64,000 nucleotides of DNA from Saccharicrinis fermentans DSM 9555 = JCM 21142. GTDB lineage: Bacteria > Bacteroidota > Bacteroidia > Bacteroidales > Marinilabiliaceae. A program made the position numbers and the translations under genes. Positions 1,069-45,951 of the stretch are shown piece by piece. The DNA is taken from NCBI RefSeq assembly GCF_000517085.1, contig NZ_KI912107.1, positions 4,461,980 to 4,525,979 of the forward strand, given 5' to 3'. Within the stretch, counting starts at the first letter, position 1, and each line of letters begins with the position of its first letter. The notes beneath the pieces were generated by a model. The model did not search any database. It worked only from the letters and a program-made list of their open reading frames with translations, and had not been told where the DNA came from.

Positions 1069-1153
1069 ATGCCATATAAATAGCTTCTCACACACGAGCT
1101 TGATGGATATGGATTGATATAGATGGCATATGGAAGTATGTGAATTAATGAAT
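1069..1153 (+). repeat. Diverged copy of the leader-like element (unit A0)
   Basis: Diverged unit of the array. Complementary arms ATGCCAT (1069-1075) and ATGGCAT (1123-1129) would close it. Inside is CTCACACACGAGCTTGATGGAT, read here as two adjoining parts (CTCACACAC and GAGCTTGATGGAT), resembling the CACACAGGTGGATGAT block of better copies. The unit ends with an AATTAATGAATATGAAAC junction leading into the next unit. Membership rests on position, unit length and the arms more than on base identity. Confidence 0.45.
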
Positions 1154-1245
1154 ATGAAACGAGCCATGGGATTTATTTCACACACACAGGTGGATGATGA
1201 GTTATGGAGAGTTCCATCTGACCATTGGAAAATATAATTAAACAG
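1154..1245 (+). repeat. Well-conserved copy of the leader-like element (unit A1)
   Basis: Shares with the aqpZ copy three identical blocks in the same order: ATATGAAACGAGCCATG (1152-1168), CACACAGGTGGATGAT (1183-1198) and GAGTTCCAT (1209-1217), and both end in TTAAACA(g/t)ATGAAA. The arms ATGAAAC (1154-1160) and GTTCCAT (1211-1217) pair with one A-C mismatch. A small hairpin TGGGA/TTTCA (1167-1180) occupies the place where the aqpZ copy has TGAGAG/CTCTCA. A 27-codon reading frame (1154-1237, beginning MKRAM) also runs through it. Confidence 0.75.
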
Positions 1246-1338
1246 ATGAAACTGGTATGGCCAGGGCAAGTAATCGGGCACACAGGTGAATGATTGAAAT
1301 TTGCAGTGGCTAGTGAAGTTTCGCTAATTTTTTAACAG
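1246..1338 (+). repeat. Diverged copy of the leader-like element directly before gldF (unit A2)
   Basis: Begins ATGAAAC at 1246, carries GCACACAGGTGAATGATT (1278-1295), and ends TTTTTAACAG just before the gldF start ATGAAACAG. Arms GAAAC (1248-1252) and GTTTC (1318-1322) pair perfectly; the A-C mismatch of the other copies is a normal pair here. A 15-codon frame with stop (1246-1293, MKLVWPGQVIGHTGE) ends within the conserved block, as does the corresponding frame in the aqpZ copy. Confidence 0.6.
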
Positions 1339-3569: not shown

Positions 3570-4530
3570 AAAATTCAACCTTAAAACATTAAGCGTCACT
3601 TTTGGCGTGTTGTTGGCTATTGTGGTTATCACATATTTTGTAGATAGATCCAAGGGTGTAAATACCTTAAAAAGCGTACTCTTCCATATTCAAACAGAAG
3701 ACATAAATTCTGTGGTGGTATATCCTAAAGTATTGAATGGAGGAAAAATTGAATTGAAAAAAGAAGGAGATATATGGAAGGTTTGGGCTGATGGTAAAAG
3801 TTATAATGGTGATGCTGGAATCATTTCGGGATTGATTCATCAAGTAAATGACTTAAAACCTTTACGGTTGGCTTCTAAGAATAAGGATAGCTGGAAAAAA
3901 TATGAGCTAACAGATTCTCTTTCCTCAAAGATTGAGTTGCTCAAAGATGCTGAGGTGCTGGAAACCTTATATATTGGTAAATTCTCTTATGTTCAATCAA
4001 AACAAAACCCAATGATGATGCAGCAGTATCCTTACCAAAGAGGACCACAAGGTACGATGACCACCTATGTAAGAGCAGGTAAGGATCATGAAGTGTATGC
4101 TGTTGAAGGTTTCTTGGGTAGCACTGTTAATCGTAATGTGGATGCCTTTAGAAATAAGCAAATTTTAAAAGTGGATAAAAATAACTTGAGCAAGATATCC
4201 TTTACTTATCCTGCTGATAGTTCATTTACAATGATTAAAAATGAGGATACATGGATGAGTGATGGAGTGGCATTAGATTCAGCTAAAGTGGCTAATTACT
4301 TATCTAAAATTTCCTCTTTAAGAGGCTCTTCATTTACGGATGATGTTCCGGCTAATTACAACTATACTGTTCAATTTCAAGATCAACAGATGGTTATGTC
4401 TGAAGTGAAAGCATGGGTCGATGGTGAAGATGTAAAGTTGAACTCTTCGCAAAATACAGGAAGCATATTCTCTGAAAAAAGAGAGGTTAACTTTTCTACT
4501 TTGTTTGTTTCTAAAGCTGCCTTGAAATAG
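3562..4530 (+). CDS. DUF4340 domain membrane-anchored protein
   Basis: 322 residues with one N-terminal membrane helix (about 9-27) and an extracytoplasmic region containing DUF4340-type repeats of beta structure (VYAVEGFLGSTVNRNVDAFRNKQIL is typical, read in parts). DUF4340 genes commonly follow GldG-like genes. The start overlaps the end of gldG by eight bases and has a purine-rich GGGGGAAAGC just before it. Function is unknown; context suggests an accessory part of the same ABC system. Confidence 0.8.
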   Translation: MFRKFNLKTLSVTFGVLLAIVVITYFVDRSKGVNTLKSVLFHIQTEDINSVVVYPKVLNGGKIELKKEGDIWKVWADGKSYNGDAGIISGLIHQVNDLKPLRLASKNKDSWKKYELTDSLSSKIELLKDAEVLETLYIGKFSYVQSKQNPMMMQQYPYQRGPQGTMTTYVRAGKDHEVYAVEGFLGSTVNRNVDAFRNKQILKVDKNNLSKISFTYPADSSFTMIKNEDTWMSDGVALDSAKVANYLSKISSLRGSSFTDDVPANYNYTVQFQDQQMVMSEVKAWVDGEDVKLNSSQNTGSIFSEKREVNFSTLFVSKAALK

Positions 4531-4572
4531 AGGTGGGGCTCGATATTTTGTTAAATTTTAAGATAAGTGATC

Positions 4573-5712
4573 ATGAGAAGAAAATCTTATTTGATGTTGT
4601 TATCTGTTTTGGCTATGATAACAATGCTAAGTCAACCAGCGCATGCAGAAGGAGATGTAGAAGTGTATACGGCCAATACAAAAATCTCAGTGCCTCCGGG
4701 TGAATCTTTAAGTTATAAACTACAAATTATTAATAATTCCGAGCAAACAAAGCTTTGTAACTTATATATTACGGGTATACCTCGAAGTTGGGATTATAGT
4801 TTAAAATCAGGGGCTTATAGTGTAAAACAGATAGCAGTATTGCCGGGTGAAAAGCAATCTGTTGACTTGAAGGTAGAAGTGCCACTGAAAGTAAACAAAG
4901 GAAACTATCCAATTACTGTTAAAGCCGGAGAAGCGCAGCTACCTTTGGTTGTTAATATCACCCAACAAGGAAGCAATAAAACTGAGTTTACAACTGAGCA
5001 AGCCAATATGCAAGGTCATTCTAAGGCTGACTTTTCTTTTAAAGCCGATTTAAGAAACAGAACAGGCGAAAAGCAGCTTTATGCATTGCGCAGCAATGCC
5101 CCCAAAGGTTGGCGTGTTACCTTTAAACCAAATTATAAACAAGCAACATCGGTGGAAATAGAACCCAATGCTTCTAAAGATGTGACTATTGAAGTGAAAC
5201 CACCTCACAGTATTAGTGCCGGTACCTATCAGATACCCGTTAAAGCAGTGAATAACTTTAGTAGTGCTGAGCTGGAATTAGAGGTGGTAATAGAGGGTAC
5301 TTATGAAATGGAAGTAACAACGCCTACAGGTTTATTAAGTGCAGATATAACGGCAGGAAGTACAGAAACGATTGATTTGTTGGTGAAAAATACAGGTTCT
5401 AGTCCTTTGAATAAAGTTAAAATGAGCGCTTCGAAACCTTCGGGTTGGGAGGTGACTTTTAAGCCGGAAGAGATTGAAGAGATTGCTGCCGGAAAAAATG
5501 CGAGCGTTAAAGCTACCATTAAAGCAGCTAAAAAATCAATTGCTGGTGACTACCTGTGTAATATAACAGCTAAGGTGCCTGAAGTGACAGATAAAATTTC
5601 CTTTAGAATGGCGGTTAAAACGCCTGCTATTTGGGGATGGTTAGGTATAGTGGTTATTGTGGGAGCCATAGCTGGTGTGGCGTTTTTATTTCGTAAATAC
5701 GGAAGGAGGTAA
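4573..5712 (+). CDS. NEW3 domain protein, secreted with C-terminal membrane anchor
   Basis: 379 residues. I chose ATG 4573 over GTG 4567 because it gives a clean signal peptide (MRRKSYLMLLSVLAMI... ending AHA). Three consecutive Ig-like NEW3-type domains follow, with repeated phrases such as PRSWDYSLKSG, PKGWRVTFKP and PSGWEVTFKPEEI, then one C-terminal helix (about 351-372) and a basic tail. NEW3 proteins are often encoded beside ABC-2 ATPase/permease pairs, as here. Likely an extracytoplasmic accessory subunit; ligand unknown. Confidence 0.8.
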   Translation: MRRKSYLMLLSVLAMITMLSQPAHAEGDVEVYTANTKISVPPGESLSYKLQIINNSEQTKLCNLYITGIPRSWDYSLKSGAYSVKQIAVLPGEKQSVDLKVEVPLKVNKGNYPITVKAGEAQLPLVVNITQQGSNKTEFTTEQANMQGHSKADFSFKADLRNRTGEKQLYALRSNAPKGWRVTFKPNYKQATSVEIEPNASKDVTIEVKPPHSISAGTYQIPVKAVNNFSSAELELEVVIEGTYEMEVTTPTGLLSADITAGSTETIDLLVKNTGSSPLNKVKMSASKPSGWEVTFKPEEIEEIAAGKNASVKATIKAAKKSIAGDYLCNITAKVPEVTDKISFRMAVKTPAIWGWLGIVVIVGAIAGVAFLFRKYGRR

Positions 5713-40246: not shown

Positions 40247-40435
40247 ACTGTTTTTGTTTAAAAGTTCATGGTTAATATAATAAACTATCGCGAATAGATC
40301 AATAGTGTGAGTATATTATTAATTTATAGGTAATTAAATTTAGTATGGTATTCAGAAATGTATTAAATTGTACGGAGTTCATGATTTATTGTGAGGAAAT
40401 CCGCCGAGATAAAGTGTTAAAAATTTAATTATAAT

Positions 40436-40527
40436 CATATGAAACGAGCCATGAGAGTGATCTCTCACACAGGTGGATGATTATCCTGACGAGTTCCATA
40501 TGACAACTGAAAGATAAATTTAAACAT
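40436..40527 (+). repeat. Leader-like element before aqpZ (copy B)
   Basis: Runs from CATATG at 40436 to the aqpZ start. Closing arms CATATGAAAC (40436-40445) and GTTCCATATG (40493-40502) pair over ten positions with one A-C mismatch; inside is a perfect hairpin TGAGAG-TGAT-CTCTCA (40452-40467), then CACACAGGTGGATGAT (40466-40481) and GGAT-GATT-ATCC (40475-40486). It ends TTTAAACATATGAAA, so CATATGAAA flanks it as a direct repeat. The gldF array contains a closely similar copy at 1154-1245. A 13-codon frame (40439-40480) ends inside the conserved block. Confidence 0.8.
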
Positions 40528-41214
40528 ATGAAAAAAGTAATAGCAGAATTTATAGGTACGCTTTGGCTTGTTTTGGGTGGATGTGGTAGTGCTGTTATTG
40601 CAGCTGGCTATCCAGAACTGGGCATTGGTTTTGTCGGTGTGGCCATTGCGTTTGGACTGACAGTTGTTACCATGGCATATGCCATTGGACATATATCTGG
40701 CTGTCATTTAAATCCAGCGGTTTCCATTGGATTATGGGTAGGAGGGCGCTTTAGTGCTAAAGAACTACTGCCCTATATCGGAGCGCAGGTGTTGGGAGGT
40801 TTGGCAGGTGCTACCATTATTTATCTTATAGCTTCTGGAAAGCCTGGTTTTGAACTGGGCGGGTTTGCGTCTAATGGCTATGGAGCTCATTCGCCGGGTG
40901 GTTATAGCATGTTCGCAGCTTTTGTGTGCGAGGTGGTGATGACTTTTTTATTTTTGATCATTATTTTAGGCGCTACACATTCAAAGGCACCAACCGGATT
41001 TGCCGGGATTGCTATTGGCTTGGGTTTAACTTTGATCCACCTGATTAGTATTCCCGTTACCAATACTTCTGTGAACCCGGCGAGAAGCACAAGTCAAGCT
41101 ATTTTTGCCGGAGGAGCTGCTATGGATCAACTGTGGTTGTTTTGGCTGGCGCCCATCATTGGTGCTATATTGGCCGGTATAGCTTATAAGTTTTTAAGCC
41201 CGGAAGAAAAGTGA
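40528..41214 (+). CDS. aqpZ: Aquaporin Z
   Basis: 228 residues, six helices and two NPA loops: HLNPAVS (about 62-68) and SVNPARS (about 184-190), the second with the arginine of the selectivity filter. The histidine in the helix-5 region ([16 protein letters not shown]) and small residues match water-selective AqpZ rather than glycerol channels. It follows directly on the leader-like element, which would lie in its 5' untranslated region. Divergent from the M4 protease gene. Confidence 0.95.
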
Positions 41215-45587: not shown

Positions 45588-45951
45588 TTAGTGTTTCCAT
45601 ATAACTAAATTTTCAATGGTCGTATGGGAAGCTCCAAGATGGTCCAGCTAACTGGGTGTTCTATTATTGACGCTGGCTATGCTGGTTTAAATCCTAATGC
45701 GCAGTTCTTTAGGGTTTTATGTGTCTTTCTTTTAAAGTCGAGACAATAAACTTGCCCTTCCCTAAAAAGTAAAACATATAATATGTATTAAATCAATTTA
45801 TTTGGACTGCAAATCTTAGCCATTTACACGGAACCTATCCGTATTTTATGTCATGACTTAGGTAATTAAATTATGAGATACGTCCTTATTGTATAAGGTG
45901 AAAATTTAAAAGTCACAAATTTAACATTGTTTAATTACATATTTTTCTATT
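45588..45951. other. 364-bp intergenic region before the giant secreted protein
   Basis: No gene supported. A frame of 41 codons (ATG near 45624, MGSSKMVQLTGC) has no family resemblance. The last 60 bases are very AT-rich and probably hold the downstream gene's promoter, though no clean TAnnTTTG box is present. Confidence 0.4.

Follow-up and report, generated by a model that had tools for sequence, protein, structure and literature searches.

A widespread family of ~90-nt repeats sited at start codons in Bacteroidota, with a candidate single-strand mode of movement

Introduction

In the genome of Saccharicrinis fermentans DSM 9555 = JCM 21142, and in those of many other Bacteroidota, a repeat of ~90 nt stands directly in front of genes and ends at their start codons. 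The family is real and widespread, and it is larger than a preliminary description of one 64,000-nucleotide stretch had reported (hereafter the window, G000:C3:4461980-4525979 of the 5.98-Mb genome). The repeat is very probably mobile. In the reading that fits best, to which we give a probability of roughly one half, it is a non-autonomous element that would move as a single strand with the help of an HUH enzyme, in the manner of IS200/IS605. Two possibilities had been raised in the preliminary description, an RNA of a new kind that acts in cis and a mobile repeat of small size: mobility is borne out by the large number of copies, a burst of near-identical ones, a filled/empty comparison and lineage-specific presence, whereas a role as cis-acting RNA keeps a minor share of the probability, the pairing of the start codon being real.

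Units in the window and their relatives

The two loci that drew attention to the family lie before genes named aqpZ and gldF in the preliminary description (Table 1). The shared blocks noted there are identical as claimed, namely ATATGAAACGAGCCATG at 1152-1168 and 40437-40453, and CACACAGGTGGATGAT at 1183-1198 and 40466-40481, followed at both loci by GAGTTCCAT; block order and spacing agree as well, with 92 and 89 bases, respectively, from the first ATG to the next start. The aqpZ copy adjoins its gene as described, whereas the gldF-like copy is separated from its gene by a second unit of another subtype. The look-alikes are thus a genuine pair that is far from unique, given 139 core-word sites in the genome, and the link to membrane-protein genes remarked on there is not borne out, since other unit-bearing genes resemble leuB, ksgA, ridA, hemH, glycosyltransferases and lipoproteins (first codons read by eye). 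In the aqpZ copy, pairing of the internal guide with ATGAAAC (P1) includes one conserved mismatch; the type A copy at the gldF-like locus has a 2-base insertion before the core, and its guide CCATCTG pairs with the 3' end CAGATG. Type B units share the core word and the ATGAAAC start with type A and lack the GTTCCATNTG guide and the pairing of the guide with the 3' end (P3). The "gldF" gene itself (1339-2064) may be a paralog: proteins of relatives are 35-44% identical, some of them starting with MWSLYRKE, as GldF proteins typically do, and a further such protein (38%) is encoded in the window's genome itself at G000:C3:2883817.

Table 1. Units and unit parts in the window (positions are those of the window)
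Feature	Position	Strand	Basis
Type A unit before aqpZ (ATG convention)	40439-40527	+	R2 101.6 bits, E 2e-20
Element proper of the aqpZ copy if cut at AT^GAAA	40441-40529	+	
P2 hairpin GAGAG-TGAT-CTCTC, aqpZ copy	40453-40466	+	sequence; A3 P2 columns 87% paired
Core word CACACAGGTGGATGAT, most conserved, mostly unpaired in the model	40466-40481	+	
Internal guide GAGTTCCATATG, aqpZ copy	40491-40502	+	complements 5'-end ATGAAAC (P1) and 3'-end CATATG (P3)
3' junction CATATG, element end plus aqpZ start codon (40528-40530)	40525-40530	+	P3 partner is 40497-40502
Possible tail of a decayed older unit upstream of the aqpZ copy (weak)	40382-40438	+	E 0.25
Outer unit of the gldF-like locus, type A	1154-1245	+	R2 78.4 bits, E 3e-15
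Inner unit of the gldF-like locus, type B, in contact with the start codon (1339)	1246-1338	+	A2 profile E 4e-32
Possible decayed older unit further upstream of the gldF-like gene (weak)	1071-1132	+	E 0.006
Possible decayed unit (weak)	45598-45688	-	E 0.003

With at most 2 mismatches, CACACAGGTGRATGAT occurs at 65 sites on the plus and 74 on the minus strand of the genome, as compared to 2 sites for a reversed-pattern control, and a number of these sites are arranged in tandem at a spacing of 85-96 bases. A near-identical burst of 29 copies, which differ from one core at no more than 2 positions, is confined to the window's genome. The sequence-only model R1 finds matches in 24 of 41 genomes, including all nine of the genus with the window's genome among them (at least 102 matches in the latter), counts that are lower bounds because a limited number of candidates was scored per genome. 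The structured model R2, applied to 20 candidates per genome in a sample of the order and to 10 in a sample of the phylum, finds the unit in 63 of 198 and 34 of 395 genomes, respectively; inner P1 and P3 were part of this search, so the loci found lean towards pairing. Among the 80 listed of at least 116 stretches that matched in a pattern scan are Natronoflexus, Breznakibacter, Saccharicrinis, Carboxylicivirga, Labilibacter, Plebeiobacterium and Prolixibacteraceae MAGs, and the matches listed also include a few MAGs with other labels. Most of the distant loci examined retain the layout ATGAAA-Y-GAGC...GCGARTT..CATNTG...CANATGAAA (L408 was shown off its match in this comparison). In viral contigs, one pattern match was found, which does not continue as a unit.

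Copies thus abound in genome, genus, order and phylum, and the comparison with Rfam that the preliminary description had advised gave no accepted match: none in the window at the gathering score, and at loose E values in the window only far sub-threshold ones, including two snoRNA models over the gldF units (15.1 and 11.7 bits, against 45 and 38). At 3 + 20 further loci, likewise none was accepted. The titles and abstract openings of the papers found in open-licence PubMed Central do not mention the element.

Position at the start codon

From 400 profile matches (356 without duplicates), 286 copies were parsed. Each element spans ~90 nt and lies directly before ATGAAA in at least 254 of these 286, a lower bound because 11 right ends among the other 32 were mis-parsed; the left flank beyond AT is variable. 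The units keep one orientation relative to the ATGAAA that follows, which is mostly the start of a gene. GAAAC recurs at the far (left) end in 257 of 286 copies; on the bottom strand, TTTC is therefore found in both places. At the proximal junctions, 172 of 207 (218 before removal of the 11 mis-parsed ones) lead into a frame that is open for at least 60 codons or up to the end of the fetched DNA. A crude expectation comes from the window, where 8 of 22 non-genic ATGAAA sites fall in start regions (p 7e-6 against the parsed junctions); resting on a rough gene call, and with element ends making up three of its intergenic sites, it serves as a hint only. An older unit-like tail ends at the left junction of 19 of the 29 units with near-identical cores, and arrays therefore seem to grow at the gene-proximal end. 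Selection of the host base before ATG by a guide base was considered and rejected, since the two do not match in the parsed units.

Mobility and the cut point

The gain of exactly one unit can be followed within the window's genome. At ~640 kb (L048), a repeat carries one unit before ATGAAAGCTTCAAAG; at ~711 kb (L007) and ~2743 kb (L019), the same unit is accompanied by one further 90-nt unit, and the flanks are near-identical. The comparison is ambiguous over CATATGAAA, as the boundary is in perfect sites generally. The repeat common to these three loci begins TAGTGGCTGCAAGAAA, ends near GCAAAGACTA and carries one or two units; part of it adjoins a broken RAYT gene elsewhere (L319). Presence is also lineage-specific at both loci tested in six relatives: by eye, the 330 bases before the start are free of units in aqpZ orthologs of G004, G029 and G001 (79, 83 and 85% identical) and in gldF-like orthologs of G008, G003 and G006 (86, 89 and 91% identical), and all these unit-free orthologs start with ATGAAA or ATGAAG.

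Several junctions bear on where the element ends. In 35 non-genic junctions (38 counted, 3 mis-parsed ones removed), AT is present on the left in 24 and on the right in 34 (Fisher p 0.003), the lone right-hand exception, L226, being a mis-parse. Among 15 units before genes that start with ATG but not with ATGAAA, 12 retain the left GAAAC, and a recent copy (L055) has GTG on the left and ATG on the right, as would result from the replacement of a GTG start. IS200/IS605-type elements make no target-site duplication; the retained GAAAC would fit this, but the filled/empty comparison is ambiguous on the point over CATATGAAA. The cut is thus probably located inside the start codon, AT^GAAA; the alternative boundary ATGAAAC...CAN is disfavoured by the non-genic junctions and by L055. 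In L324 (genome G009), a diverged unit interrupts each of two related RAYT genes and lies between TTTC and AAGTGG, with a guide that fits its own changed junction (both by eye).

Two side observations concern repeats of other kinds. Beside the split RAYT genes, a RAYT gene of another kind, accompanied by its own repeat (GATTGCAAATCCGCGCCAGCG), is found in L324 at 3900-4700. Small nested palindromes (CCCGA...TCGGG; CTGAG...GTCGAAG) sit at recurring places in units, within the guide in L226, L239, L265, L293, L310 and L316 and in the post-core loop in L262 and L313, and form a second layer of tiny repeats.

Folding and covariation

Three pairings were followed. P3 joins the internal CCATNTG to the 3' end CANATG, which includes the start codon of the gene. 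Its variable base is paired in 242 of 286 units as compared to 103.5 expected under independence. In A3, an alignment of 62 out of 106 diverse units that was picked by hand and favours structure because the 44 omitted ones include many own-genome units and the most decayed ones, it is paired in 60 of 62, by three Watson-Crick types (GC 29, AU 18, CG 12) and one GU. Distant units change both partners more extensively, to CATCAG/CTGATG and CATCTTTT/AAAAGATG (L395, L398) and to CATCCG/CGGATG (L387). The hairpin P2 (GAGAA/TTCTC) is 87% paired in A3 and has changes on both sides at 3 of its 5 pairs, whereas P1 never changes on both sides in A3.

For P1, covariation appears at greater distance. In 27 distant loci (without L403, which is too short, and L387, which is misplaced in A4), 151 of 216 positions form standard pairs, against a shuffled mean of 120.9 and a maximum of 134 in 5000 shuffles that ignore relatedness. 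The position of the guide had been chosen to maximise P3, so the corresponding shuffle for P3 is biased; P1 played no part in this choice. CGAGC/GCGAG is swapped in such loci for CATCC/GGATG, CCTGC/GCAGG, CACCT/AGGTG, TGCCC/GGGCA or TCGCC/GGCGA. Within A3, pairs with changes on both sides are no more numerous than in shuffles (3 vs 2.2; 4 vs 3.3), and the number of cells with such changes is above them (40 vs 11.2).

The type A structure became visible once diverse taxa were compared: for 43 own-genome type A units, RNAalifold returned no consensus pair. Consensus folding of 17 type B units gave 24 pairs, 4 of them with changes on both sides. Compared with shuffles, three typed units fold better (z -3.1 to -3.5), as does the type B copy in the window (z -4.1), and the type A copy at the gldF-like locus does not (z -0.53). 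Wobble pairs do not single out one strand. The balance of G-U over A-C favours the top strand for P2 (16 vs 4) and for the inner GCC/GGC (53 vs 28), is even for P1 in A3 (7 vs 7) and favours the bottom strand for P3 (7 vs 19 and 26 vs 40); a guide-target mismatch conserved in 261 of 286 units, A-C on the top strand, is a T-G wobble on the bottom strand. P1 and P3 use common guide bases and are mutually exclusive. Pairing decays with age: among the 257 of 286 units taken into this comparison, the N pair is present in 60 of 64 in the best-score quarter and in 52 of 65 in the worst.

Candidate mechanism and known systems

Movement of the IS200/IS605 type leaves recognisable signs: a fixed word beside one end that is repeated at the other, hairpins, and a guide that pairs with both cut sites. 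The guide and a tetranucleotide rule of such transposition are described in PMC6006769. From the architecture of the units we infer an HUH mechanism that could operate in the following manner. The target would be cut within the start codon, AT^GAAA, and the element, GAAACGAGCC...CANAT on the top strand, would re-supply AT, so that the gene still begins with ATGAAA. On the bottom strand, the target would be 5'-TTTC, with TTTC again at the far end of the element, and the whole would read TTTC^AT-N-TG...CANATGGAAC...hairpin...GGCTCGTTTC^. A single internal guide, GGAAC, extended to CANATGGAAC, may pair with both cleavage sites through P1 and P3; hairpins would take the place of inverted repeats, the element would travel as single-stranded DNA as IS200/IS605 elements do, and a putative transposase would be supplied in trans. 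We propose that survivors are found at start codons because insertion there spares the protein and brings its own A/T-rich leader.

The closest likeness is to non-autonomous derivatives of IS200/IS605 (PATE-like; IS608 and ISDra2 serve as models), with which the element shares a short fixed target flanking one end only, a recurrence of the target word at the opposite end, hairpins replacing inverted repeats, and an internal guide, which in the element is borne out by P1/P3 pairing and covariation. It differs from them in its length of only ~90 nt, in the use of one guide for both ends, in its survivors at start codons and in that no linked transposase was found. REP/BIME sequences, the partners of TnpA_REP (RAYT), are likewise short, multi-copy, hairpin-bearing and mostly outside coding sequence; two copies of the element inside the RAYT genes of L324 are REP-like in this respect, REPs inside RAYT genes being reported for subclass 2.4 in PMC6006769. 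In contrast to REPs, the element lacks the GT[AG]G word that marks the hairpin foot (the A3 consensus has GCCAT before the hairpin, by eye), keeps one orientation before ATGAAA, and was not found flanking RAYT genes in the loci searched. Classical MITEs are also small, non-autonomous and multi-copy, but the element is devoid of terminal inverted repeats: the inverted partner of its 5' end is internal and is followed by a tail of ~25-30 nt.

Among the co-occurrence comparisons for Y1, RAYT and subclass 1.2 enzymes, none yields an enzyme that fits cleanly; the p values of these comparisons ignore shared ancestry and genome size. Y1/HUH domains (PF01797, E<=1e-5) are present in 20 of 24 element-bearing relatives and in 14 of 17 element-free ones, and one genome, G014, has 35 element matches and zero matches to PF01797 or to NF047646 (RAYT). 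TnpA_Y1 subclass 1.2, according to PMC6006769, is a class of orphan HuH proteins in Bacteroidetes and Cyanobacteria that generally lack IS ends. It is a possible partner, with an uneven association: searched with a profile made of three proteins (L199-L201) assigned by their Y---Q--HH motif, it was found in the order sample in 43 of 63 genomes with the element and 55 of the 135 others (p 0.0004); in the phylum sample, where the association is not clear, the counts are 19 of 34 and 147 of 361 (p 0.10). The window's genome has no match. RAYT as partner was rejected because the element is not linked to RAYT genes. In 50 loci of the RAYT search (49 of them, some overlapping, plus L340, chosen for its element), there are three element matches, one in L340 and two inside the RAYT genes of L324, and none flanks a RAYT gene; in five own-genome RAYT regions, four element matches occur in two regions, at least 0.7 kb from the RAYT match. 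The half-elements of the loci examined include no autonomous copy with an ORF between its ends.

Alternative explanations

The covariation and the place of the start codon could also be accounted for by a cis-regulatory RNA, in which the P1 fold frees the start codon, P3 pairs it and thereby controls translation, and copies are kept because they are useful. The mutually exclusive use of the guide by P1 and P3, with AUG inside P3, would suit such a switch, as would the better-than-shuffled folding of the three typed units and the window's type B unit (not of the gldF type A unit), the layout kept from Marinilabiliaceae to distant Bacteroidota, and a share of start codons at proximal junctions above the crude expectation. 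We nevertheless regard it as rather unlikely as the main explanation: the downstream genes have no obvious common pathway (by reading), both loci tested show lineage-specific presence, pairing decays with age, tandem units stack, and copies split two RAYT genes. With the start codon in P3 and P1 competing with P3 for the guide, translation may plausibly be affected; the spread over unrelated genes, the stacking and the decay point to a by-product in the case of any regulatory effect. That the units encode tiny leader peptides (MKRAMRVISHTGE* and the like), for which it can be said that the frame from the left ATG has 13 codons in 118 of 286 parsed units and that the core's variable base is the third base of a glycine codon, is very improbable, because the core word lies in another frame in 55 of 178 distinct cores and other subtypes meet early stops; in the gldF type A copy of the window, the 2-base insertion also shifts the frame.

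The insertion itself could have been brought about by other machineries. If the unit were a minimal cassette and a tyrosine or integron-like recombinase acted on a short common core (GAAA or ATGAAA), this would leave the identical core on both sides that is seen after insertion, and tandem arrays and a folded site are in keeping with it, but no paired recombinase arms are seen in the consensus and closing 90 bp of double-stranded DNA into a circle would cause strain, which makes this route less likely still than the regulatory RNA. Insertion via an RNA copy, by reverse splicing or target-primed reverse transcription, would make sense of a folded gene-sense strand with sequence complementary to both ends and of the preference of P2 for G-U; we know of no intron ends that fit the element, and we consider this route improbable. 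Transposition as single-stranded DNA by an HUH enzyme remains the preferred reading.

Implications

As a rule, mobile elements either disrupt genes or lie in the intervals between genes. Here, the start codon appears to serve as the landing site, with the protein spared and its leader replaced, on the order of a hundred times in one genome. Tentatively, and at rather long odds, the family may represent phylum-wide, guide-bearing single-strand mobile elements that target the translation start, selfish elements that double as portable translational switches. One guide would read both ends, the element would rebuild the start codon that it cuts, and each insertion would give the gene a ready-made leader, in which P3 could close the start codon. 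Start codons and 5' leaders annotated in these genomes should be treated with caution, as they may be derived from the element. If landing at start codons holds true, it would account for many unusual 5' leaders across Bacteroidota and provide a test case for ~90 nt of DNA that carry all of their own targeting information; for orphan HUH enzymes, TnpA_Y1 subclass 1.2 among them, the element could be a candidate substrate.
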